From contig CAJXKB010000009.1 in the NCBI GenBank assembly GCA_913055825.1, positions 1 to 54,678 on the forward strand: a DNA stretch of 54,678 nucleotides. The letters are read 5' to 3'. Both the position numbers and the translations under genes were made by a program. How positions within the stretch are numbered: the first letter of the stretch is position 1; each line of letters opens with the position of its first letter. This document shows, in pieces, positions 9,278 through 31,341 of the stretch. Source of the stretch: an uncultured Bacteroidota bacterium (GTDB lineage: Bacteria; Bacteroidota; Bacteroidia; Bacteroidales; F082). The notes beneath the pieces are model-generated. The model did no database searches. It was not told the origin of the DNA and saw nothing but the letters and a program-made list of their open reading frames with translations.

Positions 9278-9761
9278 AACGTTGCATCGGATTTTGCCCA
9301 TTGCCCTGCTTTTGCTGACTATATTTCCGAGCTGTTATAAAGAGCATAAACTGGAAACGGTTAAGCCTACCCATTTGATTACTCAGCAAAAGCTCACTCA
9401 AATTATTACGGATATGCAACTCATTGAAGCTGCGGTTGAATATGACAAAGTACACGGTAAATATCATAATCAGTTGGAAAAAGAGTATTACCATGTGCTT
9501 TCTCAGCGATATCAGGTCAGTCCGAAACAAATCAGGGAAAGTATAAATTATTATACTAACCAGGATGATGTGATGGCCAATATTTACGATAAAGTCCTTT
9601 CAAACTTATCGCAAAAGCAAGCTGTACTTGATCGTAAAAGAATTATAAAAGAAGCACAAGAGCAGTTTAAACAATTGGAAAAAGAATTCCGGCAATTAAA
9701 TATGGGCGGCTCATTTCGTGAAGACAGCATCGCACGCATCTGTTTCAATCCGATCATCTAA
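9267..9761 (+). CDS. DUF4296 lipoprotein
   Basis: A 164-residue protein with a signal peptide and lipobox ending at LTIFPSC near residue 23, so probably an envelope lipoprotein. The body is helical and charged and resembles DUF4296, a Bacteroidota family of unknown function (QLIEAAVEYDKVHG, later repeated Gln/Lys/Glu-rich helix). The start is TTG, either at 9267, overlapping recQ by 11 bases, or at 9282; there is no ATG. The overlap suggests cotranscription with recQ, but no functional link is known. Confidence 0.75.
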   Translation: MEIRTLHRILPIALLLLTIFPSCYKEHKLETVKPTHLITQQKLTQIITDMQLIEAAVEYDKVHGKYHNQLEKEYYHVLSQRYQVSPKQIRESINYYTNQDDVMANIYDKVLSNLSQKQAVLDRKRIIKEAQEQFKQLEKEFRQLNMGGSFREDSIARICFNPII

Positions 9762-9953
9762 TGTAAAAGTAAAATCAAGACGGTTGGTATTTACAAAAGA
9801 CCTACGAAAACGGAAGTTATCCGTATTTGGAAAGATATTTCACAATAGTAATGGGGGTATAACGTTACAATAAAGTTGAGTAAAAATATTTTTAAAGTTT
9901 ATCATGCTGTAGTTCAGTTGTTTGATGTTGCGTCTTATAATTATACTGAGAAA

Positions 9954-9969
9954 TGGCATAACAGTTGCA
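9954..9969 (+). promoter_or_regulatory. Candidate sigma-54 promoter
   Basis: TGGCATAACAGTTGCA contains the invariant GG and GC separated by exactly 10 bases and matches the -24/-12 consensus TGGCAC-N5-TTGCA at all but one position. It lies 25 bases before the ATG of the zinc-ribbon gene, giving a leader of about 14 bases. No TAnnTTTG box competes in this gap. Confidence 0.55.
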
Positions 9970-9993
9970 GCTGTAAAATTTTGATTTACTGTT

Positions 9994-10140
9994 ATGCCTG
10001 CAATTAAGAAATCCGATAAAAAGGTTAAAATAAAAGTTCATAAATATTATACATGCGAACGCTGTGGATATGTAACGATTGTAAAGGACTCATTTTGTCC
10101 TATTTGTGCAAAAGAAGGTGTTAAAATTAAACTCAAATAA
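9994..10140 (+). CDS. 48-residue zinc-ribbon protein
   Basis: ATG to TAA with the pattern YTCERCGYV...FCPICAKEG, two CxxC knuckles 13 residues apart as in a rubredoxin-like or zinc-ribbon fold. The flanks are Lys-rich (KKSDKKVKIKVHK), which could suit nucleic-acid contact. A candidate sigma-54 promoter lies 25 bases upstream, and the next small gene starts two bases after the stop, so the two form an operon. I do not recognise a named family. The ordered Cys spacing and tight gene packing argue that it is real. Confidence 0.65.
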   Translation: MPAIKKSDKKVKIKVHKYYTCERCGYVTIVKDSFCPICAKEGVKIKLK

Positions 10141-10142
10141 TT

Positions 10143-10340
10143 ATGGAATCATTATCATTGGAAATAAATCAAACTTTTTTGATAGAAGATTTGGCAAAAG
10201 CAGGCCTGAAACAGAGAGATATTAAAGAGCTTTCGGCTAAAGTTTTTGTAAAAGACGACAAAGTGTATTTTTTTGATGAATTGGATAGTAAATACTACCG
10301 TCTTTATTCAGTTATTAACAAGCGATCCTTTTTCCTTTAA
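10143..10340 (+). CDS. Small protein of unknown function, second gene of the zinc-ribbon operon
   Basis: A 65-residue protein starting two bases after the zinc-ribbon stop codon. The first half is predicted helical (IEDLAKAGLKQRDIKELSAK). The second is beta-like and aromatic (VFVKDDKVYFFDELDSKYY). No transmembrane segment or recognised motif is seen. A small hairpin (GGGTA-gcaa-TACCC) and then a strong terminator follow, closing the two-gene unit. Function unknown. Confidence 0.55.
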   Translation: MESLSLEINQTFLIEDLAKAGLKQRDIKELSAKVFVKDDKVYFFDELDSKYYRLYSVINKRSFFL

Positions 10341-10372
10341 TCGGGTAGCAATACCCACAAAAGCCCGCCATC

Positions 10373-10408
10373 AAAAACCCTGTGAAGTTCCTTTCGCGGG
10401 GTTTTTTA
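10373..10408 (+). terminator. Rho-independent terminator of the small-protein operon
   Basis: AAAACCCTGTGAA pairs with TTCGCGGGGTTTT around a short loop, with two G-U type pairs, and is followed by a T run. It lies 33 bases after the 65-residue gene. Confidence 0.7.
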
Positions 10409-10444
10409 GTTTACGAGTGGCAATACTGAATTTTATGGGCATAA

Positions 10445-13521: not shown

Positions 13522-14577
13522 ATGAAGAAGTATATTCTAGGTTCGGTTGTTGTTATGGCTTTTCTGGCCTACTTTGCTGTTTCGTGCTCCAACCATCAGA
13601 TTAAAGATTTTTCGGTAGCATTCTATAATGTAGAAAACCTGTTTGACACTATTGATAATCCTAATACTCGCGATAACGATCATCTTCCTAACAGTAGAAT
13701 ACCTTGGAATACAGTCCGCTATAACAGAAAACTCAAACATATTGCCCGGGTAATGTCATCCATACAGTCAGGTGGGTTTCCATCCTTGTTTGGCCTTGCC
13801 GAGGTAGAAAACAGACAGGTTATTGAAGATTTAATTCATCAAAAGGACCTGGAAAAAGCAGGGTATAAAATTATACACAAAGACAGCCCGGATGAACGGG
13901 GTATTGACGTAGCCTTATTGTATCAACCAAACGTTTACAAGCCACTTAAAAACAGGTTTATCCGTTTGCGGTTTCCTTCCGAACCAAATAATCCAACCCG
14001 TGACATTCTTTATTCCAAAGGGCTTGTTTATGGAAAAGACACCCTGCATGTTTTTGTAAACCATTGGGTTTCGCGTTATGGTGGCAAAGAGAGAACAGAT
14101 GCCCTTCGTAGATATACTGGCCACTTATTACGCCTGCTTGCCGATTCTATTTTTAATGTTTCACCTTATGCTAACGTAGTGATTATTGGTGATTTAAATG
14201 ATGACCCCACCGATCCCAGCCTGACATCTGCTTTAGGCGCTGAAAATCCGGTGGCCCCATTTGCCAAAAAGCAGTTGTTCAATTTAGCTTACCAGCCTTA
14301 TAAAGCCGGCATCGGTTCTTTGTATTACCATGGCTGGGATTTGTTTGATCAGGTAATCGTAAGCACCTCCCTCGTAGCTGGTTATAATGGAATTAAAACT
14401 GATGAATTAAAAGAGGAAGTTTTCAAAAAACCCTGGATGTTATTTCAGCCTAAAAAAGGACCGGCTGTACCTAATAGAACTGCCGGGAAAAAATATTATG
14501 GTGGCTACAGCGATCACCTGCCTGTGATTGTAAAAATGAAAGTGGATTTAAGTGGTGAAATTTTCACTATAATCTGA
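13522..14577 (+). CDS. Endonuclease/exonuclease/phosphatase-family lipoprotein
   Basis: A 351-residue protein with a signal peptide and lipobox (FAVSC, about residue 22), so envelope-anchored or exported. The EEP fold is seen in AFYNVENLFDT near residue 33, GLAEVENR near residue 92 (metal-binding Glu), VNHWVSR near residue 180, IIGDLNDDPTDPS near residue 228 and the final GGYSDHLPV (catalytic Asp-His). These are the metal and general-base residues of DNase I-like enzymes. The substrate could be nucleic acid or a phosphate ester. It carries its own promoter. Confidence 0.85.
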   Translation: MKKYILGSVVVMAFLAYFAVSCSNHQIKDFSVAFYNVENLFDTIDNPNTRDNDHLPNSRIPWNTVRYNRKLKHIARVMSSIQSGGFPSLFGLAEVENRQVIEDLIHQKDLEKAGYKIIHKDSPDERGIDVALLYQPNVYKPLKNRFIRLRFPSEPNNPTRDILYSKGLVYGKDTLHVFVNHWVSRYGGKERTDALRRYTGHLLRLLADSIFNVSPYANVVIIGDLNDDPTDPSLTSALGAENPVAPFAKKQLFNLAYQPYKAGIGSLYYHGWDLFDQVIVSTSLVAGYNGIKTDELKEEVFKKPWMLFQPKKGPAVPNRTAGKKYYGGYSDHLPVIVKMKVDLSGEIFTII

Positions 14578-19317: not shown

Positions 19318-19339
19318 CGGTTTATCTAAATAGGGCTAA

Positions 19340-19347
19340 CAAAATTA
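19340..19347 (-). promoter_or_regulatory. Putative -7 box for the RSH gene
   Basis: On the minus strand this reads TAATTTTG, a full TAnnTTTG match 23 bases before the start codon. Confidence 0.45.
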
Positions 19348-19414
19348 GTGCTTTTTGATAAATATTTATAACTTCTTTTTCTCGATCAAGCCGAAGTAAC
19401 AAAATAAAAAATAA

Positions 19415-19447
19415 AAAAGAGGAGGTTTTGTCGAAATCTCCTCTTTT
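19415..19447 (-). terminator. Terminator of the microcompartment operon
   Basis: AAAAGAGGAG and CTCCTCTTTT form a perfect 10-bp stem around a 13-base loop. On the minus strand it is followed by TTTATTTTTTATTTTG, and it lies 55 bases beyond the deoC stop. Confidence 0.8.
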
Positions 19448-19501
19448 CTTAACGGGGCATACACTTTTTCAAATGGCCGCAGTTTGACTATTTTGTTGAC
19501 A

Positions 19502-20299
19502 TTAATAATTTTCGCTACCCGGGGCACTTTTCATAATGGCTACGCTTCCACCGGCTCCAATACGGGTAGCCCCGGCTTGTATCATGGCCACTGCGGTTTT
19601 AAAATCGTGAATTCCGCCACTGGCTTTTACACCCATTTTAGGACCAACGACACGGCGCATCAGGGCAACATCTTCAACAGTGGCTCCACTGCCTGTAAAA
19701 CCCGTACTTGTTTTTACAAAATCGGCACCTGCCTTTTTTGAAATCTCACAGGCCAGTATTTTCTCCTCTTCGGTTAGTAAAGAGGTTTCGATAATAACTT
19801 TCAGGATTGTTGTGCTTCGGCATACCCGTTTGATGGCACGGATATCCTCTTCAACCAATTTTAAATTCCCCGATTTAAGGGCGCCAATATTAATCACCAT
19901 ATCCAGCTCGTGAGCCCCGTTTGCAATAGCATTTCTGCCTTCAAACGCCTTACTTCTAGTATCCATTTCGCCCAACGGAAAACCGATAACAGAACATACC
20001 TTTACTGATGAGCCCCTTAGTTTTTTGGCTACAAATGGAACCCATGATGAATTTACACATACCGACTTAAACCGATATTGAATGGCTTCGTCACATATCT
20101 GCTCAAACTGATCTTTTGTAGCCCCCGGTTTTAACAAGGTGTGATCAATATAACCGGCTAATTCCTGAGGGGTAATCAATGCGGACGAAGGATTTTTTGC
20201 CTTTAAATTACCTTTCGCAGTATCACCGGATATCCCTGCTTTTTCAAGTTTCGAAAGAATCTCTTTCGTAATTTTTTCAATCAACTCGTTCTCTTCCAT
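19502..20299 (-). CDS. deoC: Deoxyribose-phosphate aldolase with microcompartment targeting extension
   Basis: Class I aldolase cleaving 2-deoxyribose-5-phosphate to glyceraldehyde-3-phosphate and acetaldehyde. Schiff-base Lys196 sits in FVKTSTGF, the helper Lys167 in LKVIIET, and Asp133 in ELDMVIN. About 42 extra residues precede the core (YIDHTLLKP, 50-58). Residues 5-20 (ELIEKITKEILSKLEK) form an amphipathic helix followed by a flexible Gly/Ala/Lys linker, as in BMC encapsulation peptides. The same pattern begins the aldehyde dehydrogenase of this operon. It is the last gene of the BMC operon, six bases after the RpiB-like gene, and supplies the acetaldehyde for that dehydrogenase. Confidence 0.95.
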   Translation of the reverse strand: MEENELIEKITKEILSKLEKAGISGDTAKGNLKAKNPSSALITPQELAGYIDHTLLKPGATKDQFEQICDEAIQYRFKSVCVNSSWVPFVAKKLRGSSVKVCSVIGFPLGEMDTRSKAFEGRNAIANGAHELDMVINIGALKSGNLKLVEEDIRAIKRVCRSTTILKVIIETSLLTEEEKILACEISKKAGADFVKTSTGFTGSGATVEDVALMRRVVGPKMGVKASGGIHDFKTAVAMIQAGATRIGAGGSVAIMKSAPGSENY

Positions 20300-20305
20300 A
20301 TCTAT

Positions 20306-20881
20306 TTACATTCTTTCAATTGAAGTTATTTTATTTATTCTTGGCCAATGTCTTCCGCCTTCAAATGGGGTCTCAAGCCATAATTTAGCCATGGACGCGA
20401 TGTCAGACACCGAATGTTGCAAAGCTCCAATTGTTAAAACATTGGCATTGTTGTGTATACGGCTGTTAACAATAGTTTCGGTACTCCAGCACAAAGCAGC
20501 GCGGATACCCTTTACTTTATTACATGCAATGGAAGACCCGATTCCGGCAGCATCAAGCATAATACCACGTTCACAGGTTCCACTCACTACTTTTTTAGCT
20601 ACGGCCAGTGCAAAATCAGGATAATCAACCTTGGTTGTACTGTTATCGGTTCCAACATCATAAACTTTATATCCCAGTGTTTCAAGATATTTCTTTAGTG
20701 CTTCTTTTGTTTCGAAAGCACCGTGATCAGCCCCAATGGCAACGCGTTTTACATGGTCTTTAAGCATATTATTTTGGTCAATCGTTATTTCTTTTTCTGT
20801 ACTGATAAAATTTTTTCTGTTGTGCATGGGCAGCTTTGCCGATTTTTCCCTATTGTAACTTCTTTTTACCATTTTTATCAT
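20306..20881 (-). CDS. RpiB/LacAB-type sugar-phosphate isomerase, microcompartment-associated, altered active site
   Basis: The core (about residues 45-190) is RpiB-like: VAIGADHGAFETKE, VDYPDFA, and HNNANVLTIG with the ring-opening His. The canonical CGTG active-site loop is replaced by LDAAGIGSS (residues 109-117), so the usual base Cys and partner Thr are Asp and Ala. Substrate or mechanism may therefore differ from ribose-5-phosphate isomerase. The ATG shares one base with the stop of the preceding BMC-P gene (TAATG). This supports the long start and a real 40-residue polar N-terminal extension; a later Met (residue 39) is possible. Genes of this type accompany deoC in sugar-phosphate-utilising BMC loci. 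Confidence 0.88.
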   Translation of the reverse strand: MIKMVKRSYNREKSAKLPMHNRKNFISTEKEITIDQNNMLKDHVKRVAIGADHGAFETKEALKKYLETLGYKVYDVGTDNSTTKVDYPDFALAVAKKVVSGTCERGIMLDAAGIGSSIACNKVKGIRAALCWSTETIVNSRIHNNANVLTIGALQHSVSDIASMAKLWLETPFEGGRHWPRINKITSIERM

Positions 20882-21147
20882 TACGCAATTTCATCAACAA
20901 TAGCGGCAATAACTGTTTTTACAGTTACTACATCGTCGTTTTGAAGGACTTGTCTCGCCGAATTCCCTTCTTCAATGGTCAGAACAACATCACCTACACC
21001 GGCCTGTACGGCATCAAAAGCCAAAAAGGAAGTGCCAGTAAAGATCCCGACAGGGTCAACAGGCTGAATAACAAGTATTTTTCTCGCTTCATAGCCTTTG
21101 GCCTTGACGGTTGAAACCACGGTACCGATAACTTTTCCTAACCTCAT
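20881..21147 (-). CDS. Microcompartment pentamer shell protein (BMC-P, EutN/CcmL family), copy 4
   Basis: An 88-residue protein of the EutN/CcmL family (MRLGKVIGTVVSTVKAKG start; IAAIVDEI end). Pentamers cap the twelve vertices of the polyhedral shell. It overlaps the preceding BMC-P gene by four bases (ATGA) and the following RpiB-like gene by one, so translation is coupled. It is closest to copy 3 beside it, suggesting tandem duplication. It is the shortest of the four copies and ends right after the last beta strand. Confidence 0.92.
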   Translation of the reverse strand: MRLGKVIGTVVSTVKAKGYEARKILVIQPVDPVGIFTGTSFLAFDAVQAGVGDVVLTIEEGNSARQVLQNDDVVTVKTVIAAIVDEIA

Positions 21148-21419
21148 TTTATTTTCAAAATATTCATGTCATCTACTATTCCCACAATGGCTGCATCGCA
21201 GGGGTTCATTTCCCTTTCAATAACACGGCTGGCCTCCTTGCTAACTTCGAAATAAATGGCCTGGCCAATATCTGCCTGTAGGGTATCCACAGCCACAATG
21301 GCATCACCAACCGATTCCATTCTCTCGTTAACTGGTTGGACTAACACAAGTTTTAAACCTTCAAAAGATTCTACTTTTTGTGTGCTGACAACCCTGCCGA
21401 TTATTTTACCTAATTTCAT
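21144..21419 (-). CDS. Microcompartment pentamer shell protein (BMC-P), copy 3
   Basis: A 91-residue EutN/CcmL-family protein (MKLGKIIGRVVSTQKVESFE; DAIVAVDTLQADIG; AAIVGIVDDM). It forms vertex pentamers in the BMC shell. The gene lies 11 bases after the aldehyde dehydrogenase gene and overlaps copy 4 by four bases. It shares the LGK-IG-VVST start and the VQPV motif with copy 4, unlike copies 1 and 2, so the four fall into two pairs. Confidence 0.92.
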   Translation of the reverse strand: MKLGKIIGRVVSTQKVESFEGLKLVLVQPVNERMESVGDAIVAVDTLQADIGQAIYFEVSKEASRVIEREMNPCDAAIVGIVDDMNILKIK

Positions 21420-21430
21420 TAATGAATTTA

Positions 21431-22846
21431 TTAAATGATTCTAAAATAATCTACCAGTGTGCAGCGTCTTTCGCGTGTAAAGGTCCTGGCACGTGTAACT
21501 CCTTCTCCGGTCGGGCTGGCAATCGTAAAAGACGCAAAACCAGCTCCTCCTTCACCCAATCCTGCATAACTGGGCCCGTTTTTAATAAAAATGGAGCAGT
21601 TCATGGCTTTTGCCATTTTACTAAGCTTGGCAATATTGAGCGAATGCATGATGGCTGTATGTCTGAAACCATGCTCACACCTGACAGCCAGATCAATAGC
21701 GTCATCTACATTGGGAACTCGGACCAGTGGCATAACAGGCATTAACTGTTCTGTCCAAACCAATGGGTGATATTCGTCCACTTCACAAAGTAACAAACGT
21801 GTGCTTTCGGGAACATTTAATCCAATTGCTTTGGCAATTTTAGCTGCATTTTGACCAACATAAGTTTTATTTGCAGCACCTTCGTGCCCCGGTCGGCCTG
21901 CATCAGCAATTACCAGTTCGGTGACCTGGCGAACTTGTTCCGGAGTCAGAAGATAAGCACCATTTTTTTGCATTTCGGCCTTCAAGGCATCTGCAACAGT
22001 ATCAACAACAATAGTTTCTTTTTCGCAAATGCAGATTAGATTATTGTCGAAACTGGCTCCGGCAACGATATCTTTACCTGCTTTGACAATATCAGCTGTT
22101 TCATCCACAACACAAGGAGGGTTTCCGGGGCCGGCGGCAATCACTTTCTTTTCCATTTTCATGGCAGCTTTTACCACGGCAGGGCCTCCGGTAACCACTA
22201 AAATGGATATTTTCGGATGGCCCATCATCTCTTGTGCTGATTCCAGTGTAGGAGTTTCAACAGATGTAATCAGGTTTTTAGGCCCTCCGGCTTCCACAAT
22301 AGCCTTGTTAAGCAGACTGATCAGCAAAACGGATACCTTTTTAGCAGCGGGATGAGTATTGAAAACAACTGAATTCCCCGCAGCAATCATTCCGATACAA
22401 TTGCTGATAATAGATGCAGTCGGATTGGTACTTGGAGAGATAGACCCAATAACACCATAAGGAGCATGCTCAACCAGTGCCAGACCATGGTCGTCGGAAA
22501 AAGCCTCAGGAGCAATATCCTCAACGCCAGGCGTTTTCCGGATAGCCAATTCGTTTTTTATAACCTTATCGTCCCATCGTCCCATACCGGTTTCTTCACT
22601 TGACATTTTCGAAACTAATTCGTTATTTTCTTCCGAAACTTTACGAATATTTTCAATGATACGTTTGCGGGTTTCCAAACTTAATTTCCCCAGTTCCTGA
22701 AAAGCCACTTCAGCAGCTTCAACAGCCTGATCGATGGTAGAAAATATACCCATCTTACTCTCTGCACTTTCTTTAATGCTGTTTAATTTGAGGTCTTGTA
22801 ATGCCTCACGAACCAATTGACGTATATTATCTTCTAAATGATCCAT
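21431..22846 (-). CDS. CoA-acylating aldehyde dehydrogenase of the microcompartment (PduP/EutE-like)
   Basis: Oxidises an aldehyde, here most likely acetaldehyde from DeoC, to the acyl-CoA with NAD+ and CoA. The nucleophile is Cys272 in FDNNLICICEKE, where EutE/PduP enzymes have NNLPC. GVIGSISPSTNP and AGPGNPPCVVD are family segments. Residues 2-21 form an amphipathic helix (DNIRQLVREALQDLKL) followed by a linker, the classic N-terminal encapsulation peptide. It aligns well with the DeoC helix. The 471-residue length is normal. It sits in the middle of the operon between shell genes and is the signature core enzyme of the BMC. Confidence 0.94.
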   Translation of the reverse strand: MDHLEDNIRQLVREALQDLKLNSIKESAESKMGIFSTIDQAVEAAEVAFQELGKLSLETRKRIIENIRKVSEENNELVSKMSSEETGMGRWDDKVIKNELAIRKTPGVEDIAPEAFSDDHGLALVEHAPYGVIGSISPSTNPTASIISNCIGMIAAGNSVVFNTHPAAKKVSVLLISLLNKAIVEAGGPKNLITSVETPTLESAQEMMGHPKISILVVTGGPAVVKAAMKMEKKVIAAGPGNPPCVVDETADIVKAGKDIVAGASFDNNLICICEKETIVVDTVADALKAEMQKNGAYLLTPEQVRQVTELVIADAGRPGHEGAANKTYVGQNAAKIAKAIGLNVPESTRLLLCEVDEYHPLVWTEQLMPVMPLVRVPNVDDAIDLAVRCEHGFRHTAIMHSLNIAKLSKMAKAMNCSIFIKNGPSYAGLGEGGAGFASFTIASPTGEGVTRARTFTRERRCTLVDYFRII

Positions 22847-22860
22847 TTAACTATTTATTT

Positions 22861-23424
22861 TTACATGAAGAAGGGTTTAATTTCTTTGTGTGGTTGGGGA
22901 ATGATGGTTTCCATACCGAGGAGGTTTTTCTCTCTCGCTTTTGAAGTTCCCGCTTTTATGGCAGCTTGTACAGCATCAAGGCTACCCATCATTTTAACAT
23001 ACGATTTCCCACCATAACCATCAGCCAGACGGATTTCTATAATTTTAACACCACCTTCTTTAGCCGCACGGTCTGCTGATTCGATTCCCGAAACGATAGA
23101 TAGCGTTTCAATTAGCCCGATGGTATTCCAATCGCCGCTATTGATAGTGTTTCCAATGGCCGGTATAACATCGGGATGTACCTGAGGAAGGAAAAGCCGA
23201 TCGACAAGATAATCTCCACCGGTTTCGCAACCGGCCCGATACGCATATTCCACCGAAGCCACATCACCGCTAAAAATGATTAGATATTTTCCGGAACTAA
23301 TGGTTCGTGCATCTATAATTAGGATTGGGGCTACTTTAACCATTTGGTCGAGGGCCTCCATGCCAATAACGATACTACTGTATTCCAGTGCGCCAAGAAC
23401 AATTATATTCCTTTTTTCTATCAT
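22861..23424 (-). CDS. Tandem-domain microcompartment trimer shell protein (BMC-T)
   Basis: A 187-residue protein with two BMC domains. The first holds LGALEYSSIVIGMEALDQMV and IIFSGDVASVEYAYRAG (residues 10-66), the second GLIETLSIVSGIESADRAA and GSLDAVQAAIKAG (about 102-160). Such proteins form pseudohexameric trimers in shell facets, sometimes with a metal or Fe-S site on the axis as in PduT. A Cys at residue 66 (RAGCETGG) could be considered for that, but I cannot place it at the pore. It overlaps the upstream BMC-P gene by four bases. Confidence 0.9.
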   Translation of the reverse strand: MIEKRNIIVLGALEYSSIVIGMEALDQMVKVAPILIIDARTISSGKYLIIFSGDVASVEYAYRAGCETGGDYLVDRLFLPQVHPDVIPAIGNTINSGDWNTIGLIETLSIVSGIESADRAAKEGGVKIIEIRLADGYGGKSYVKMMGSLDAVQAAIKAGTSKAREKNLLGMETIIPQPHKEIKPFFM

Positions 23425-23708
23425 TTTTTGTAAACCACTTTTCCGTTTTCATCAATTACATCGACAATGCCAACAACAATAGCATCGACAGCTTTGTTAC
23501 GGGTTGTCGGAGTTTCGCGCGCCGATGTGCTTTGAGCGATCATTACCATTTCGCCATTTCCTGCACTTACTAAATCAAGGGCCACCAGAAAATCGTTTTT
23601 TGTCTCGCCCTGCTTATTACATTTATTTATTAATAAATAGCGTCCACCCCTAATATCAGTATTATTTGAGCTGCTCGTAACAGTACCTGTAACTATCCCT
23701 AAAATCAT
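23421..23708 (-). CDS. Microcompartment pentamer shell protein (BMC-P), copy 2
   Basis: A 95-residue EutN/CcmL-family protein (MILGIVTGTVTSS; KNDFLVALDLVSAGNGE; DAIVVGIVDVID). It pairs with copy 1, sharing the MIL start, the KNDF segment and the extended NGKVVY / NGNIAY tail. The gene is nine bases after copy 1 and overlaps the BMC-T gene by four bases. A loop of Ser and Asn (SSSNNTDIRGG) replaces the usual Lys-rich turn. Confidence 0.92.
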   Translation of the reverse strand: MILGIVTGTVTSSSNNTDIRGGRYLLINKCNKQGETKNDFLVALDLVSAGNGEMVMIAQSTSARETPTTRNKAVDAIVVGIVDVIDENGKVVYKK

Positions 23709-23717
23709 TTTAAATGC

Positions 23718-24011
23718 TTAATTTTTTTGATAAGCAATGTTCCCGTTTTGCTCAATTATATCAACAATTGCAGTTACAGTGGCATCAGTAGGTAAATTTT
23801 TTGTGGTTTCAGCCATGCGGGCCCCACTTCCGGAAACGTAAAAAACAACCTCATCAATACCGGCACCAACTCCATCCATGGCAACAACAAAATCATTTTT
23901 ACCTTGCATTGTTACAGGATCAATTTTTTCAAGTAACAATAACTTGATTCCTTCCATTTTCGCGGTTTTCTGACTTGACACCACTGTTCCTTTTACCCTC
24001 GCTAAAATCAT
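23718..24011 (-). CDS. Microcompartment pentamer shell protein (BMC-P), copy 1
   Basis: A 97-residue EutN/CcmL-family protein (MILARVKGTVVSSQKT; KNDFVVAMDGVGAGIDEV; TVTAIVDIIEQNG). It is predicted to form vertex pentamers. It starts six bases after the second BMC-H gene and is the longest of the four copies. Confidence 0.92.
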   Translation of the reverse strand: MILARVKGTVVSSQKTAKMEGIKLLLLEKIDPVTMQGKNDFVVAMDGVGAGIDEVVFYVSGSGARMAETTKNLPTDATVTAIVDIIEQNGNIAYQKN

Positions 24012-24016
24012 ATTTC

Positions 24017-24316
24017 CTATTTTTGCTTTTTACGGCCTAAAGGCAAAGCACTGTCAACGTTGGCATGTGGCCTCGGAATAACATGACTCGAAACTATTTC
24101 GCCTACTTTTGCGGCAGCTCTGAGGCCGGCATCAACAGCAGCCCTTACCGACGCCACATCGCCACGGACAATGGCAGTAACATATCCTCCACCTGTTGAT
24201 TCAAATCCAATCAATTCTACTTTGGCGGCTTTCACCATTGCATCAGAGGCTTCTACCATGGCTGCAAAGCTGCGTGTTTCAATCATCCCAAGGGCATCTG
24301 TACTATAATCAGACAT
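24017..24316 (-). CDS. Microcompartment hexamer shell protein (BMC-H), copy 2
   Basis: A 99-residue single Pfam-BMC-type domain ([20 protein letters not shown], 8-27; [19 protein letters not shown]). It forms cyclic hexamers tiling the facets. The pore-lining turn is STGGGY, small and Gly-rich. It is almost identical to copy 1 across the core and differs mainly at the first eight residues and a few surface positions. The C-terminus is basic (LGRKKQK). Confidence 0.95.
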   Translation of the reverse strand: MSDYSTDALGMIETRSFAAMVEASDAMVKAAKVELIGFESTGGGYVTAIVRGDVASVRAAVDAGLRAAAKVGEIVSSHVIPRPHANVDSALPLGRKKQK

Positions 24317-24340
24317 AATTTTTTTCCTTTATTTTTATCA

Positions 24341-24979
24341 TTAATAATCGTCTCTTCCGGTGATTTCGGCCAATCGTTTTTCAACAATTGTTTTACATTC
24401 AAGCACTTCTGCTTCGTCACCACCAATGTAAACGCGTCCAAATTTACCAAAACCAACTACATCGATTATTTTGATGTGAGCCGCTTTTTCGGCTTCATTA
24501 GCAGCATAATAAGCATAACCGGCCGGTTCAATTTCCAACACGTAAAGTGTTTCGCCGCGCAACAGCATCATCCCTTTACGGCTACGGTTAATTAATTGGG
24601 CATGATGGTCGTCCACGTTTTTGATCAGTTGGCTGGTTAATATGCGCGGTTTCATCCGGTGATCTTCCGTTTGGTCAATCGCAGTTAAAACAGCTTCACC
24701 AGCCATGCGGGTGTCGCCCTGGTCGTCCGAATGGATTTCGAGCATGCCATAGGCACGTTCGACAATTTGCATGCCGGGTCTGATGTTGGTTGCTTTAATG
24801 GCTATATCGGTAAGGGCATTGATCTCGATACCGGGAGCAATTTCAATAATACACGCCGATTGGCCGCCAACCGGTAGAAATCCGCGTGAAACGGTTGAAA
24901 TATAGGAAGCCATTTGCGACTGTAGCGAATCAAGGAAAATATAGGTCCTTAAATCGATATGAGATTTAGAATCGTTCAT
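24341..24979 (-). CDS. CsoS1D-like tandem, circularly permuted shell protein (BMC-TDP type)
   Basis: A 212-residue protein that reads like the CsoS1D/CcmP family of carboxysomes: RTYIFLDSLQSQMASYI near the start, SRGFLPVGG, EIAPGIEIN, VERAYG (E74-R75), VLTAIDQTEDHR, PAGYAYYAANEAEKAAH, and GFGKFGRVYIGG. CsoS1D trimers stack in pairs and have a pore opened or closed by a conserved Glu-Arg pair, which VERAYG preserves. A gated pore for larger metabolites or cofactors is a fair inference. It lies between the two BMC-H genes. Confidence 0.9.
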   Translation of the reverse strand: MNDSKSHIDLRTYIFLDSLQSQMASYISTVSRGFLPVGGQSACIIEIAPGIEINALTDIAIKATNIRPGMQIVERAYGMLEIHSDDQGDTRMAGEAVLTAIDQTEDHRMKPRILTSQLIKNVDDHHAQLINRSRKGMMLLRGETLYVLEIEPAGYAYYAANEAEKAAHIKIIDVVGFGKFGRVYIGGDEAEVLECKTIVEKRLAEITGRDDY

Positions 24980-24988
24980 TTTTGTCTT

Positions 24989-25288
24989 TTATTTGGTGGA
25001 TTTTCTGCCCAAAGGAAGTGCAGTATCTACATTTTGATGGGGGCGTGGAATGATGTGTGACGATACAATTTCTCCCACTTTCTCAGCAGCCCGTAATCCG
25101 GCATCAACCGCCGCACGAACCGAGGCAACATCACCCCTGACAATGGCTGTTACATAGCCGCCGCCTGTTTTTTCATAGCCAACGAGTTCAACTTTAGCAG
25201 CTTTTACCATTGCATCAGAGGCTTCAACCATTGCTGCAAATCCACGGGTTTCAATCATCCCCAAGGCCATCATTTCGTTATTTTCCAT
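24989..25288 (-). CDS. Microcompartment hexamer shell protein (BMC-H), copy 1
   Basis: The first gene of the BMC operon, 99 residues with one BMC domain ([20 protein letters not shown], 8-27; [17 protein letters not shown]). It forms hexamers, likely the bulk facet tile. It differs from copy 2 mainly at the N-terminus (MENNEMM), the pore-adjacent EKTGGG and a few surface residues. A promoter-like TAACTTTG lies about 100 bases upstream. Confidence 0.95.
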
Positions 25289-25389
25289 AAGTTTGAATTA
25301 TTAAATGAATACTCTTTACCGGCAGGTTGTTTAACTCGGCCGGATTTCCCTTTTTATCTTCCCGTTAACCGGGATGCAAATTTGGAATG

Positions 25390-25397
25390 CAAAGTTA
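25390..25397 (-). promoter_or_regulatory. Putative promoter of the microcompartment operon
   Basis: On the minus strand this is TAACTTTG, a full TAnnTTTG match, giving a leader of about 95 bases before BMC-H copy 1. No clear -33 TTTG is seen, and I find no obvious operator. The leader contains only weak inverted repeats (CCCG-ttaac-CGGG). Confidence 0.45.
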
Positions 25398-25510
25398 ATA
25401 AATTATTCATCATGATGTTTAATAGGGCGTTTTTTCATGCAAGCTTCGCAGTTCATTATCAGCAGCAATGTGGCAAACTCGGGGCTGTTCCGTTTTTCCA
25501 TGAAATTTAT

Positions 25511-25518
25511 TAATTTTG
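25511..25518 (+). promoter_or_regulatory. Putative -7 box for yebC
   Basis: TAATTTTG matches TAnnTTTG and lies 40 bases before the yebC ATG. It is divergent from the BMC promoter 114 bases away. Confidence 0.45.
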
Positions 25519-25557
25519 CCACGCAAATTAGAAACACTCAATTAAAATAGAAATATC

Positions 25558-27295: not shown

Positions 27296-27664
27296 TCATC
27301 GCGACAATTGATAATCTCTAATTAATAATTCAGCCGATAGATTCAATTTATTTGCTAGTCTTCTTATCATACCAACCGTCAATTTACGCTTGCGATTCAA
27401 AACCTCTGAAACTCTACTTTTCCCTCCAATCTCCGGAACTAAATCAACTTGTTTTAGTTGCATTTCTTCCATTCGAATTTTAATAGCTTCAATAGGGTCA
27501 GGAGCATCAATCGGAAAATATGTTTTCTCATAATCATCAATCATTAGTCCAAGAATATCAGCTTCATCACTTTCAGCGGTTCCAATTGGGGCATCAAATA
27601 TTTTATTGAGTCTGTCTAAGGCATTTTGATAATCTAAATCTGTTTTTATTAGTTTAATATCCAT
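27296..27664 (-). CDS. higA: HigA-type antitoxin with HTH domain
   Basis: A 122-residue protein with an acidic N-terminal half and a C-terminal XRE-type helix-turn-helix (MQLKQVDLVPEIGGKSRVSEVLNRKRKLT, about residues 72-100). Long HigA antitoxins of this form bind the HigB toxin and repress their own promoter. It starts 12 bases after higB in the usual toxin-first order. Confidence 0.9.
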   Translation of the reverse strand: MDIKLIKTDLDYQNALDRLNKIFDAPIGTAESDEADILGLMIDDYEKTYFPIDAPDPIEAIKIRMEEMQLKQVDLVPEIGGKSRVSEVLNRKRKLTVGMIRRLANKLNLSAELLIRDYQLSR

Positions 27665-27676
27665 GACATTAAGTTT

Positions 27677-27973
27677 TTAAATTGTATTTGAGTCAATTTT
27701 ATCATACTCAGCATGAGTTCCAATGAAACGAATAAAAGCCCATTGTTTCTCAAAATTAAATTTAACAATTAATCGGTACGAATTTCCCTTAATATTAAAC
27801 ACAATCCGTCCAATTTTAAGAATACTTGCATTTGCATAAGTTTGTTTAACATCATTTGGCGTCTTCCAATCTGAACTCATTGCTGTGTCAAACCATGTTT
27901 TTAAATATTGTTCAATATCAGGATGGTTTTCCAAGTATTCTCTTAATGTACTTTTTGCAAATATTCTTTTCAC
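27677..27973 (-). CDS. higB: HigB-type mRNA interferase toxin
   Basis: A RelE-fold toxin with the HigB pattern: FAKSTLREYLENHPD at the start, then WKTPNDVKQTYANASIL, GNSYRLIVKFNF and AFIRFIGTHAEYDKID. HigB cleaves mRNA on ribosomes when not neutralised. I use a GTG at 27973 (MKRIFAK), the usual family N-terminus; the frame continues to a TTG at 27994, which lies within the promoter's -7 box. The pair lies between the BMC and acetate operons and may be a mobile insertion. Confidence 0.9.
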   Translation of the reverse strand: MKRIFAKSTLREYLENHPDIEQYLKTWFDTAMSSDWKTPNDVKQTYANASILKIGRIVFNIKGNSYRLIVKFNFEKQWAFIRFIGTHAEYDKIDSNTI

Positions 27974-27991
27974 TTTCAAGTTATCGATGTG

Positions 27992-27999
27992 CAAAGATA
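27992..27999 (-). promoter_or_regulatory. Putative -7 box for higBA
   Basis: On the minus strand this is TATCTTTG, a full TAnnTTTG match 19 bases upstream of the preferred GTG start. HigA probably autoregulates here, but I see no clear palindrome. Confidence 0.5.
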
Positions 28000-28126: not shown

Positions 28127-29320
28127 CTATTTCACAATTTCATAAGTGTCAACAGCAATCATTAATTCCTCTTTTGTGGGAACCACAATCACTTTCACCG
28201 GAGAATCGTCAGTAGAGAGGATAATCTCTTTTCCACGAACTTTTAGTTTTTCAGGATCGGTTTTGATGCCTAAAAATTCAAGTCCGTTGAGTATATTGGC
28301 ACGTGTTTCAGTATCGTTTTCGCCGATACCGCCGGTAAAAATCAATACATCCACTCCACCCAAAGCAGCCGCATAGCCTCCAATGTATTTTTTAACATGA
28401 TAGGCAAACATCTCAAGCGCTACTTTTGCGCGATGATTTCCCTTTTCGGCAGCTTCTTCAATGTAGCGCATGTCAGACGATACACCTGAGATTCCCAACA
28501 TTCCCGAAAACTTATTAATCAAGGTGCGGGTATATAAAATACTGGTTTTTTCTTTTTCAGCAATAAAAAGCAAAGCACCGGGGTCGATATCTCCGGTACG
28601 CGTTCCCATAATTAGTCCTTCGGTAGGAGTCATCCCCATGGAAGTATCATATGATTTTCCGTCTTTGATGGCAGTAATAGAAGCCCCGTTTCCCAAATGG
28701 CAACTTATAATTTTTTGATCTTTAAAGTTCAGGTTTAAAAGATCACATGCCCGTTTGGAAACATATTTATGACTGGTGCCATGAAAACCATAGCGCCGAA
28801 TTTTATATTTTTCGTAAAGTATGTAAGGGATACCATACAGATACACATGTTCGGGCATGCTCTGGTGGAAAGCCGTGTCGAAAACACCTACCTGAGGGAC
28901 ACCCGGGAGCAATAATTTCATTGCATAAATCCCTTTTAGGTTCGGCGGATTATGAAGAGGGGCTAACTCGGATGATTTTTCAAGTGCATCAATCACCTTG
29001 TCATCAATTAACACACTGCCGCTAAATTCTTCGGCACCATGTACTACCCTGTGACCAACCGCATTAATTTCCTCTAAACTTTTCAGGCTGCCGTACTCTT
29101 TACTACTCAGTACACCGAGGAGGTATTCAATACCCTGGTTATGATCCAAAATCTCACCTTCAATTTTTACCTCGGCTTCATTGCCTCTTTTATGTTTGAT
29201 GGCACTTCCCTTCAAGCCGATTTTTTCTACAATGCCTCTCGCTAAAACCTCTTTGGAGGGCATATCAAACAATTCGTATTTGATGGACGAACTACCACAA
29301 TTTAATACAATAATTTTCAT
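28127..29320 (-). CDS. ackA: Acetate kinase
   Basis: Makes ATP and acetate from acetyl-phosphate. Signatures are present in order: VLNCGSSSIKYELF (residues 4-17), GHRVVHGAEEFS, YGFHGTSHKYVS, HLGNGASITAI, GMTPTEGLIMGTRTGDIDPG and FTGGIGEND. The length of 397 is typical. It is the last gene of the pta-hbd-ackA unit, followed by a terminator. It could drain acetyl-phosphate derived from the microcompartment product acetyl-CoA, as well as serve general fermentation. Confidence 0.97.
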   Translation of the reverse strand: MKIIVLNCGSSSIKYELFDMPSKEVLARGIVEKIGLKGSAIKHKRGNEAEVKIEGEILDHNQGIEYLLGVLSSKEYGSLKSLEEINAVGHRVVHGAEEFSGSVLIDDKVIDALEKSSELAPLHNPPNLKGIYAMKLLLPGVPQVGVFDTAFHQSMPEHVYLYGIPYILYEKYKIRRYGFHGTSHKYVSKRACDLLNLNFKDQKIISCHLGNGASITAIKDGKSYDTSMGMTPTEGLIMGTRTGDIDPGALLFIAEKEKTSILYTRTLINKFSGMLGISGVSSDMRYIEEAAEKGNHRAKVALEMFAYHVKKYIGGYAAALGGVDVLIFTGGIGENDTETRANILNGLEFLGIKTDPEKLKVRGKEIILSTDDSPVKVIVVPTKEELMIAVDTYEIVK

Positions 29321-29339: not shown

Positions 29340-30350
29340 TTATTTGATGATGGCACATGATATGGTATTTCCGATGGGTTTTCCGTTCCCTTTATAATTA
29401 TAAAAACCTTTTTTGGTTTGTAAACCAAGGAAATTTGCCCGTACCAAGCGTTTTATAATAGGAGAGGCTTTGTATTTTTTGTCACCATATTCCATATACA
29501 GGTTATCCATATATTTCAAAATTTTATCCAACCCAATCCTGTCGGCAATCTCGAAAGGGCCATAAACATAACCCGTGGTTTCTTTCATTGTTTCATCAAT
29601 GTCTGAAACCGACGCTACACCTTCCATCAATATTTCACAAGCTTCATTAATAAGAGGTATTAATATACGAGTTGAAATATTGCCTGGCGACTCATTAATT
29701 AAAATAGCTTTTTTATTAATCATGCGAACGAAACGGTTTACTTTTCCATAAACCTCATCGGACGTGTGGCGTCCTTTAACCACCTCAACAATATTTGTTT
29801 TATCAATGGGCTCGATAAAATGAATACCAATAGCCCTTTCGGGATGTTTCAACACTCTTGCAAGGTCGGAAATAATTAAAGTGGACAAGTCAGAAGAAAT
29901 AATACAATTTTCACGGACAACGGCTTCCACTTTTTTAAATAACTCCTGACGAAGGCCAAGTAAGGTGCCTTTTTGTCTTGAGCTAATGGTCTCTATTACC
30001 AAATCACAGTTGCTCAAATCCTCGAAACGGGTTGTGGCTTTAATGCGCGACATGATAAGTTTTTTCTCACTTGATGTAATACCCCAGTGTGCGATAACAT
30101 CATCCAGCTGGGCTTCAATATCAAGCATGATTTCTCTGTTTCTTTCATCGGAAACATCCAGAAAAGTAACATCCATACCGTATTGTGCCGCTATACGTGT
30201 TACAACCTGTCCGACACTACCACATCCGATGATGCCCACACATTGTATATTTCCTTTGGGTTTAAGCCTGCCTCCCAGGCTAAATTGAACTAATTCGCTC
30301 ATGGTTTTATAGCTTTTATCGTTAAATATTTTATTCGGCATTAATACCAT
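29340..30350 (-). CDS. 3-hydroxyacyl-CoA dehydrogenase (3-hydroxybutyryl-CoA dehydrogenase type)
   Basis: A 336-residue NAD(P)-dependent enzyme with a Rossmann motif (VGIIGCGSVGQV near residue 37) and the active-site-type segment IGIHFIEPID...VEVVKG. The C-terminal helical domain holds GFYNYKG near the end. It would interconvert 3-hydroxyacyl-CoA and 3-oxoacyl-CoA, giving a possible NADH sink. The ATG at 30350 overlaps pta by 20 bases; a second ATG at 30302 (MSELVQ) would avoid the overlap and is equally plausible. Its placement between pta and ackA is unusual outside Bacteroidota. Confidence 0.88.
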   Translation of the reverse strand: MVLMPNKIFNDKSYKTMSELVQFSLGGRLKPKGNIQCVGIIGCGSVGQVVTRIAAQYGMDVTFLDVSDERNREIMLDIEAQLDDVIAHWGITSSEKKLIMSRIKATTRFEDLSNCDLVIETISSRQKGTLLGLRQELFKKVEAVVRENCIISSDLSTLIISDLARVLKHPERAIGIHFIEPIDKTNIVEVVKGRHTSDEVYGKVNRFVRMINKKAILINESPGNISTRILIPLINEACEILMEGVASVSDIDETMKETTGYVYGPFEIADRIGLDKILKYMDNLYMEYGDKKYKASPIIKRLVRANFLGLQTKKGFYNYKGNGKPIGNTISCAIIK

Positions 30351-31341
30351 TGGCCTGATTGGCTGTTATGGCAATCATATTAATGATGTCGTTAACAGAG
30401 CATCCCCTCGAAAGGTCGTTAATTGGAGCAGCAAGTCCTTGTAAAACAGGACCTACCGCTTCGGCGCCTGCCATACGCTGAACTAATTTATAAGCAATGT
30501 TGCCTGATTCAAGCGAAGGGAACACCAATACATTGGCTTTGCCTGCAATTTCCGAGCCGGGGGCTTTTTTCTGTCCGATAGCTTCTATAATAGCTGCGTC
30601 AGCTTGTAGTTCGCCATCTATTTTAAGTTGGGGATTCATGTCCAGTGCAAGTTTAGTGGCTTCAACTACTTTATCGACTTTTTCGTGTTTTGCACTACCT
30701 TTAGTCGAAAAACTCAACATGGCCACGCGAGGCTCAATACCCGCTATATTTTTGGCCGTCTTTGCTGATTCTACAGCAATTTCTGCCAATTCGCGAACGC
30801 TTGGATCAGGGTTTACAGCACAATCGGCAAACACCAAAACGCCGTCATCACCAAAAGTTTTATCTTTCAATATCATGATAAATGCACCGGAAACAGCACT
30901 GACCCCGGGTAAGGTTTTGATAATTTGAAAAGCAGGACGCAATACGTCGCCTGTAGCATGTTCGGCACCACTTACTTCACCGTCAGCTTTTCCGTCTTTT
31001 ATTAATAATGTGGATAAATACAAGGGATCTTCAACAAGCTGCATGGCTTGTTCCAGGGTCATTCCTTTTTTCTTGCGAATATCGGCCAGCATCCGGGCAT
31101 AATATTCTTTTTGAGGATGATCTACAGGATCGATCAAAGTTGCTTTTTCGATGTTTTTTAACTCGAAATTTTTGCTCTTCTCAAGAATAAGCTGTTTGCT
31201 ACCCAGCAAAATTACAGAAGCCAAACCGTGCTCCAGTGCATAGTCGGCAGCACGTAAATTACGCTCTTCAGTGCCTTCGGGCAGGACAATTGTTTTGCCT
31301 GCCTGACGGGACATCTCGTGAATTTTATTAATTAAGTCCAT
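30331..31341 (-). CDS. pta: Phosphate acetyltransferase
   Basis: Converts acetyl-CoA and phosphate to acetyl-phosphate and CoA. This is the short single-domain Pta (336 residues), without the N-terminal DRTGG domains of E. coli Pta. Typical segments are VLPEGTEERNLRAA (20-33), SGAEHATGDVLRPAFQIIK near 123, FADCAVNPDP and the final GLAAPINDLSRGCSVNDI. First gene of the pta-hbd-ackA operon. No PduL-type phosphotransacylase is present in the BMC operon, so this soluble enzyme is the obvious partner. Confidence 0.96.
   Translation of the reverse strand: MDLINKIHEMSRQAGKTIVLPEGTEERNLRAADYALEHGLASVILLGSKQLILEKSKNFELKNIEKATLIDPVDHPQKEYYARMLADIRKKKGMTLEQAMQLVEDPLYLSTLLIKDGKADGEVSGAEHATGDVLRPAFQIIKTLPGVSAVSGAFIMILKDKTFGDDGVLVFADCAVNPDPSVRELAEIAVESAKTAKNIAGIEPRVAMLSFSTKGSAKHEKVDKVVEATKLALDMNPQLKIDGELQADAAIIEAIGQKKAPGSEIAGKANVLVFPSLESGNIAYKLVQRMAGAEAVGPVLQGLAAPINDLSRGCSVNDIINMIAITANQANGINAE

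Follow-up and report, generated by a model that had tools for sequence, protein, structure and literature searches.

A predicted sugar phosphate utilization microcompartment operon largely excludes ordinary deoC in Bacteroidales and carries an RpiB-like protein without the catalytic cysteine

Eleven genes for a predicted microcompartment

We analysed a 54,678-nucleotide stretch of DNA from an uncultured Bacteroidota bacterium of the order Bacteroidales (contig CAJXKB010000009.1 of assembly GCA_913055825.1; hereafter the window), which is contig 9 of a 3.1 Mb assembly with 145 contigs and 96.9% completeness. On its minus strand, at 19502-25288, lie eleven tightly packed genes for bacterial microcompartment (BMC) shell proteins, an acylating aldehyde dehydrogenase, an RpiB-like protein and the deoxyribose-phosphate aldolase DeoC, separated by at most 24 bases or overlapping slightly. 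Their 5'-to-3' order is BMC-H, CcmP-like BMC-T, BMC-H, BMC-P, BMC-P, BMC-T, aldehyde dehydrogenase, BMC-P, BMC-P, RpiB-like, DeoC. A preliminary description, made from the DNA letters alone, had proposed a one-strand BMC operon between a promoter-like box and a strong terminator, and all of the genes, the terminator and a candidate box were found as follows (aa, amino acids).

25390-25397, minus strand: candidate Bacteroidota -7 promoter box TAACTTTG, by match to the consensus
24989-25288, minus strand: BMC-H 1, 99 aa, pore motif EKTGGGY (PF00936; 62% identity to Escherichia coli EutM)
24341-24979, minus strand: CcmP-like double-stacked BMC-T, 212 aa, motif QIVERAYG (NF053796, 283 bits)
24017-24316, minus strand: BMC-H 2, 99 aa, pore motif ESTGGGY, with Ser for Lys (PF00936; 84% identity to BMC-H 1)
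23718-24011, minus strand: BMC-P 1, 97 aa (PF03319, 85.5 bits)
23421-23708, minus strand: BMC-P 2, 95 aa (PF03319, 74.6 bits)
22861-23424, minus strand: tandem BMC-T, 187 aa, PduT-like by hidden Markov model (HMM) (PF00936 on both halves; TIGR02526)
21431-22846, minus strand: acylating aldehyde dehydrogenase, EutE-like, 471 aa, N-terminal helix LEDNIRQLVREALQD (NF011927; identity to EutE)
21144-21419, minus strand: BMC-P 3, 91 aa (PF03319, 85.4 bits)
20881-21147, minus strand: BMC-P 4, 88 aa (PF03319, 74.2 bits)
20306-20881, minus strand: RpiB-fold protein, 191 aa, or 153 aa if an internal ATG is the start (PF02502, 165 bits)
19502-20299, minus strand: DeoC deoxyribose-phosphate aldolase, 265 aa, N-terminal helix ELIEKITKEILSKL (TIGR00126; catalytic residues)
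19413-19449, minus strand: intrinsic terminator, by folding of the hairpin against shuffles

The shell genes stand up to profile searches: four EutN_CcmL proteins match PF03319 at 74-86 bits (cut-off 25 bits), and PF00936 matches the BMC-H pair and both halves of the 187-aa BMC-T. PF00936 matches occur at four places in the assembly, every one inside this operon. Together with syntenic relatives, the HMM matches rule out chance open reading frames (ORFs) or an artefact. The PduT-like assignment of the 187-aa protein comes from a TIGR02526 match of 106 bits, below the cut-off of 250. The 212-aa protein, previously described as a CsoS1D-like tandem protein, is indeed a tandem BMC-T, but its label is corrected to CcmP-like; the NF053796 score lies under that equivalog's cut-off of 340, and the protein has no Pfam match. 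Its QIVERAYG motif we take to be the gate. The pore Lys of BMC-H 1 agrees with the lysine-lined BMC-H pores described for another locus like those of the sugar phosphate utilization (SPU) type (PMC9052549). The pore Ser of BMC-H 2, which may alter shell permeability, recurs in none of 70 Bacteroidota copies, 60 of which have Lys. Four related loci (L024, L025, L026 and L028) hold their CcmP-like BMC-T and BMC-H genes in duplicate.

At the downstream boundary, the terminator (19449-19413) combines a 12-bp stem with a U tract and folds at -14.6 kcal/mol (z -3.9), a value equalled by none of 200 shuffles. The TAACTTTG box at 25397-25390 lies 109 nt upstream of the first operon gene and is presumably of the type named the Bacteroidota -7 motif. 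Of 16 relatives tested, 10 have TAnnTTTG upstream of the operon, at positions -67 to -183 (with a further copy at -259 in one of the ten), and 6 lack it. A sigma-70 scan gave no excess of sites (12, against 14.5 in shuffles).

The proposed core of the organelle, DeoC together with the acylating dehydrogenase, is likely correct. The dehydrogenase scores 683 bits against NF011927 (cut-off 403) and is 51% identical to E. coli EutE; DeoC scores 286 bits against TIGR00126 (cut-off 117) and 72.7 bits against PF01791. The DeoC residues C47, D102, K167 and K201 (E. coli numbering) are intact in 55 of 55 aligned relatives, namely the loci with a DeoC match of at least 250 bits. Read by eye, the N-terminal helices are conserved across relatives, ELIEKITKEILSKL-like on DeoC and LEENIRQLVREAL-like on the dehydrogenase, and both window helices are amphipathic, with hydrophobic moments above 98% of shuffles; we predict that they are of the encapsulation-peptide type. 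The N-terminus of the window's RpiB-like protein does not exceed 98% of shuffles by this measure, and helices of encapsulation type can be seen by eye on some RpiB-like proteins outside Bacteroidota (e.g. L041, L056 and L072). Residue 172 is Phe in 55 of 55 operon DeoC proteins; in the E. coli enzyme and in 20 of 20 ordinary ones from Bacteroidales it is Lys, which has been suggested as a possible acid in deoxyribose-phosphate aldolase (DERA) (PMC5975929). The three PDB relatives listed also have Phe there, so Phe172 marks the subfamily rather than the organelle.

Distribution of the operon and of ordinary deoC

With the CcmP-like protein as query, a scan of genome contigs yielded 76 loci, 38 of them in metagenome-assembled genomes (MAGs) labelled Bacteroidota, Bacteroidales or Chlorobiota and 38 in other lineages, mostly Spirochaetes, plus KSB3 and UASB270. 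The full eleven-gene order is present in 24 of the 38 Bacteroidota loci and 6 of the 38 others; the rest are truncated by contig ends, show no detectable copy of a gene, or differ in content, and many of the other-lineage loci have an undetected PduT-like BMC-T, inserted genes or contig ends. When loci are required to have the CcmP-like, dehydrogenase, RpiB-like and DeoC genes, 26 of 26 from Bacteroidota and 22 of 28 from other lineages preserve the order of an eight-gene backbone. A tree of dehydrogenases, built from the window and 41 of 61 usable loci, places the 23 Bacteroidota rows on the same side of a branch supported at 98/96, and midpoint rooting nests them among the others, which fits a single entry of the operon into Bacteroidota. 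Outside Bacteroidota, a DeoR-type regulator lies within about 1.4 kb of the CcmP-like gene in 21 of 38 loci, 11 of 38 have a PduS-like protein inside, and for 9 of 38 the fetched flanks include a PnrA-like nucleoside-binding lipoprotein; the same search found none of the three in the 38 Bacteroidota loci. One representative of each was named by Pfam and the rest by phmmer match to it, and since flank lengths differ these counts are lower bounds. One Spirochaete MAG carries two loci on JAJSAL010000008.1 (L060 and L062), the second without an RpiB-like match, and L047 (CP070841.1) has a CcmP-like BMC-T, a BMC-H and a DeoR-type regulator with no core-enzyme match in 20 kb.

Genomes with the operon largely lack an ordinary deoC. 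In a family sample of 149 genomes, ordinary DeoC is found in none of the 10 with BMC genes, compared with 119 of the 139 without; within the four genera concerned the counts are 0 of 10 and 18 of 19. An order sample of 393 genomes was searched with DeoC protein, the operon being called by an RpiB-like gene adjoining DeoC rather than by shell search. Here a second DeoC occurs in 1 of 13 verified operon genomes, the window's included, and a DeoC match in 333 of 376 others; four genomes with an operon-like DeoC outside a verified context (G251, G392, G397 and G409) were set aside. In the single exception, G350, the second DeoC adjoins the operon. Fisher p values are 2.8e-8 (family), 5.5e-7 (four genera) and 2.4e-10 (order), with genomes that are not independent of one another. 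The 119 have PF01791 matches in the DeoC score range of 40-89 bits, 21 of them confirmed by phmmer as ordinary DeoC and the rest assigned by score. Eight of the 10 BMC genomes show the operon DeoC, and the contigs of G032 and G080 end within the operon; G068 additionally carries a PF01791 protein of another subfamily (217 bits).

In several relatives the operon also occupies the chromosomal slot of ordinary deoC, whose counterpart in the window comprises four features.

7073-9277, plus strand: recQ, neighbouring the slot (PF09382, PF16124; synteny)
9267-9761, plus strand: DUF4296 gene, neighbouring the slot (PF14129; synteny)
9762-10025, no strand: empty former deoC slot; in sister genomes the corresponding flanks enclose ordinary deoC or the operon
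10026-10410, no strand: small-ORF block beside the slot, with DNA homologues just upstream of deoC or the operon in relatives

The BMC-negative genomes G054 and G063 have ordinary deoC flanked by DUF4296/recQ on one side and a GTPase gene on the other, and in G043 the operon occupies that same gap in the same orientation. The operon of G068 is split across two contigs, and its outer flanks correspond to the ones around deoC in G002 and G018. Four genomes of a second genus (G015, G029, G041 and G061) have the operon in the same neighbourhood in reverse orientation, flanked by a gene pair that borders deoC in their sister genome G052; the G032 contig shows no slot gene. DNA matching the window's small-ORF block immediately precedes the operon in G043, G068, G080 and G021; in G054, G018, G002, G077, G084 and G033 it immediately precedes ordinary deoC. 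In the window itself the operon sits away from the slot, between relA/spoT and yebC, a site that six relatives match on both sides and leave without an operon; tblastn with one ordinary DeoC detected no deoC remnant in the window's empty slot. Two routes fit this pattern: exchange at the slot by recombination, or an ancestor that held both side by side and then lost either one. Three loci (L024-L026) still show ordinary deoC and the operon side by side.

Several observations concern the neighbourhood. The relA/spoT-yebC gap (19318-25557 in the window) is variable in the genus: it is about 0.2 kb in G054, and in G002 and G018 it holds two large ORFs of about 880 and 550 aa (L236 5306-10040, L240 6225-10890). 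At 27296-27994 lie two small genes that read as a HigB/HTH toxin-antitoxin-like pair, and their homologues in L021 stand just past the dehydrogenase, where shell genes would be expected. An endonuclease/exonuclease/phosphatase family protein (PF19580) at 13522-14577 keeps the same neighbourhood in BMC-negative relatives.

The RpiB-like protein and a model for the organelle

The RpiB-like protein, previously described as an isomerase, is not supported as an ordinary one. Its motif DAAGIGS stands where E. coli RpiB has CGTGVGI, and in E. coli numbering Cys66 is replaced by Asp, Thr68 by Ala and Ile72 by Ser in 58 of 58 aligned proteins (those of the 76 loci with a separate match of at least 180 bits). 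His99, Asn100, Arg133, His134 and Arg137 are retained in all 58, and Asp9 and His10 in 51 of 51 with letters at those positions. Two of the 76 loci fuse the RpiB-like protein to DeoC in a single frame of about 425 aa (L027 14214-15488 and L031 13817-15094), with an encapsulation-type helix between the domains, and 16 lack a full RpiB-like gene, mostly at contig ends; L047 and L062 have none within 20 kb, and L021 has other genes past the dehydrogenase. The apparent absence of RpiB from L027 and L031 is refuted by these fusions, which carry DGAGIGS. The same motif change is found in both fusions and in twelve order-sample operons (some genomes shared with the 58). Ordinary RpiB copies of the window's family, 21 in L111-L131 (one from operon genome G032) and 11 in L162-L172 (operon genomes), have Cys66 in 32 of 32, and at position 68 mostly Ser rather than Thr. 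Within the family, the operon-type protein scores at least 298 bits in nine of 149 genomes, all operon carriers, and the next match is 122 bits. The 153-aa form is modelled by AlphaFold with pLDDT 94.8 and superposes on RpiB 3he8 with a template-modelling (TM) score of 0.92 and a root-mean-square deviation (rmsd) of 0.9 A. A single-protein query confirmed no RpiB-like relative on viral contigs; among plasmids, 690 records match, all below 60% identity, and those annotated among the matches listed are named rpiB.

In the mechanism described for RpiB, Cys abstracts the C2 proton and Thr shuttles one between O2 and O1; the ring oxygen is proposed to receive a proton from His102 (E. coli His99), arginines hold the phosphate, and Cys-to-Ser and Cys-to-Ala mutants are inactive (PMC4783025). 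His138 (E. coli His134) is the proposed O1 proton acceptor in Mycobacterium tuberculosis, and mutation in Trypanosoma cruzi pointed to a role in binding (PMC4783025). The operon proteins have thus lost the isomerising pair and kept the ring-opening and binding set, and they are probably not ordinary RpiB or ribose-5-phosphate isomerases. The substrate of DeoC, 2-deoxyribose-5-phosphate (dR5P), lacks the 2-hydroxyl, the group that the lost Thr would touch; dR5P is given as 99.8% furanose, and DERA as having no counterpart of the ring-opening His of phosphoglucose isomerase (PMC5975929). These residues suggest to us a tentative role for the protein, and one we would not favour strongly, as a ring opener that readies open-chain dR5P for DeoC.

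We propose, with a probability of about 0.8, that the operon builds an SPU-type microcompartment that performs the cell's DeoC reaction, leading from deoxyribose-5-phosphate through acetaldehyde to acetyl-CoA. In this model, dR5P would enter the shell, perhaps via the gated CcmP-like pore; the RpiB-fold protein may bind the furanose 5-phosphate, open its ring and supply the open-chain form to DeoC; and DeoC would cleave it, the co-encapsulated EutE-like dehydrogenase trapping acetaldehyde as acetyl-CoA. Such trapping would pull the unfavourable cleavage and contain the volatile aldehyde. Acetyl-CoA and NADH would be handled outside the shell or otherwise, and housekeeping Pta-AckA can make ATP from acetyl-CoA. 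Pta-type genes are present in 28 of the 29 genomes searched for supply and recycling enzymes (10 with the operon and 19 without), and the window holds both genes of the pair.

30331-31341, minus strand: pta phosphate acetyltransferase (TIGR00651, 389 bits), also in BMC-negative relatives
28127-29320, minus strand: ackA acetate kinase (TIGR00016, 518 bits), also in BMC-negative relatives

We reject pta-ackA as a system-specific part, the pair adjoining yebC in BMC-negative relatives too.

A number of observations weigh against parts of this model. DeoC enzymes, including that of E. coli, function without an RpiB-like partner, and L062 has DeoC and the dehydrogenase with no RpiB match. Exclusion of the ordinary enzyme has exceptions in fetched stretches: ordinary DeoC occurs in L017 (partial), L024, L025, L026 and L040 among the 38 Bacteroidota loci, and a second DeoC lies near some Spirochaete loci (e.g. 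L036, L037, L048 and L053). Neither DeoB (TIGR01696, over cut-off) nor PYNP_C was found in any of the 29 genomes, control genomes being positive, so the route to dR5P is hypothetical, and the DNA origin of the deoxyribose, proposed in the preliminary description, is only a possibility; nucleoside phosphorylase/nucleosidase-type genes (PF01048) are present in 29 of 29. PduL (PF06130) has no match in the window's genome, and neither a phosphotransacylase (PTAC) nor an alcohol dehydrogenase is among the eleven genes. Most ordinary RpiB proteins of the family have Ser68, so the missing Thr carries little weight by itself. A ring opener would also be less needed if, as stated for DERA, opening of the dR5P ring does not limit the rate (PMC5975929). 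Finally, M. tuberculosis RpiB is active with a base other than Cys, Glu75 (PMC4783025, PMC3755991).

That precedent also lends itself to a different reading, which we consider possible yet doubtful: a true aldose-ketose isomerase with Asp as base, acting on another sugar phosphate in an organelle with a second or different substrate. The Asp is invariant rather than decayed, and the RpiB fold is intact in the model. The M. tuberculosis Glu, however, sits four residues further along, and the proposed O1/O2 proton shuttle Thr68 is lost as well. DeoC moreover requires a 2-deoxy aldose, which C1-C2 isomerisation of a ketose cannot yield, and the exclusion of ordinary deoC indicates dR5P. A role as triose-phosphate isomerase for the product glyceraldehyde-3-phosphate was set aside by geometric reasoning, as the kept phosphate site would misplace C1-C2 from residue 66. 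A role as stand-in for the missing phosphopentomutase was likewise set aside: no DeoB scores above cut-off in the 19 BMC-negative genomes of the same genera either, and DeoC is present in 18 of those 19.

A purely structural role for the RpiB-like protein, as an inactive scaffold or an assembly factor of the core, we regard as unlikely. Loss of the catalytic Cys in all 58 proteins, the inactivity of the RpiB Cys mutants and the fusions to DeoC are as such a role would predict, but the binding and ring-opening residues and the new D-x-A-G-I-G-S motif are invariant across the aligned Bacteroidota, Spirochaetes and KSB3 loci, which suggests selection for chemistry. A synthetic organelle, which would make acetaldehyde from acetyl-CoA by reduction and join it to glyceraldehyde-3-phosphate to form dR5P, is very improbable: the aldol direction of DeoC is thermodynamically favoured and acylating dehydrogenases are reversible, but the DeoR-type regulators and PnrA-like proteins by some non-Bacteroidota loci point to catabolism, and the replacement of ordinary deoC is uninformative on direction.

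Relation to known systems

The locus is a member of the known SPU type, as first suggested from its gene content, and its signature enzymes agree with the published definition: a pfam01791 DeoC-type aldolase, a pfam02502 RpiB-type protein, an aldehyde dehydrogenase and a BMC shell (PMC4207490, PMC8217296). In SPU loci this dehydrogenase belongs to the acetaldehyde (EUT1) branch, where the window's enzyme, 51% identical to EutE, may also fall. Seven SPU subtypes are described, reported from 26 phyla, and CcmP-like double-stacked BMC-T proteins are given for SPU2 and SPU3 among others, so that the window's CcmP-like BMC-T would fit SPU2 or SPU3 (PMC8217296). For Marinimicrobia members an aldolase-isomerase fusion and no PduL are reported (PMC4207490, PMC8217296); the other members of the 2014 set have PduL, which the type as published does not require. 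The window's eleven genes include no PduL, PduS or regulator. Its RpiB member lacks the catalytic Cys, whereas the SPU protein is presented by Sutter as the RpiB type isomerising ribose-5-phosphate (PMC8217296) and by Axen as an RpiB-like sugar isomerase, perhaps of low specificity (PMC4207490). Neither in excerpts of these descriptions nor in the literature searched did we meet the changed RpiB catalytic site or deoC exclusion. The string "Bacteroid" is absent from the main text of PMC8217296, as is "Bacteroidetes" from that of PMC4207490, and the figures or supplements of either paper may well list Bacteroidota. In the literature searched, supplements aside, we found no experimental study of SPU compartments, the function having been proposed from gene content.

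Against this background, a deoxyribose-phosphate role gains separate support from deoC exclusion and the shared slot. The conserved loss of Cys removes an awkward step from the published scheme, because dR5P has no 2-hydroxyl and its ordinary C1-C2 isomerisation is impossible, and it presents a directly testable enzyme. That the SPU "RpiB" is misnamed, being a non-isomerising opener of the dR5P ring, and that one Bacteroidales slot holds either a cytosolic deoC or the whole eleven-gene compartment, is a joint proposal we put forward with considerable reserve.

The window operon shares with the E. coli ethanolamine utilization (EUT) system a EutE-like dehydrogenase (51%), an EutM-like BMC-H (62%) and EutN-type vertex proteins, and differs in that DeoC would be its aldehyde source and its eleven genes hold no EutD or EutG homologue. 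From RpiB its RpiB-like protein retains the fold (TM 0.92, rmsd 0.9 A to 3he8) together with Asp9, His10, His99, His134, Arg133 and Arg137, and departs in having Asp66, Ala68 and Ser72 for Cys66, Thr68 and Ile72. At one locus, some genomes have a single cytosolic gene where their sisters have a whole predicted organelle, which makes for a natural comparison of the benefit of encapsulation. The ordinary Bacteroidales DeoC, of the E. coli-like subfamily, has the same expected reaction, C47/D102/K167/K201 and slot in relatives, whereas the window DeoC is 27-34% identical to it (20 compared), has Phe172 rather than Lys172, and carries an N-terminal helix.

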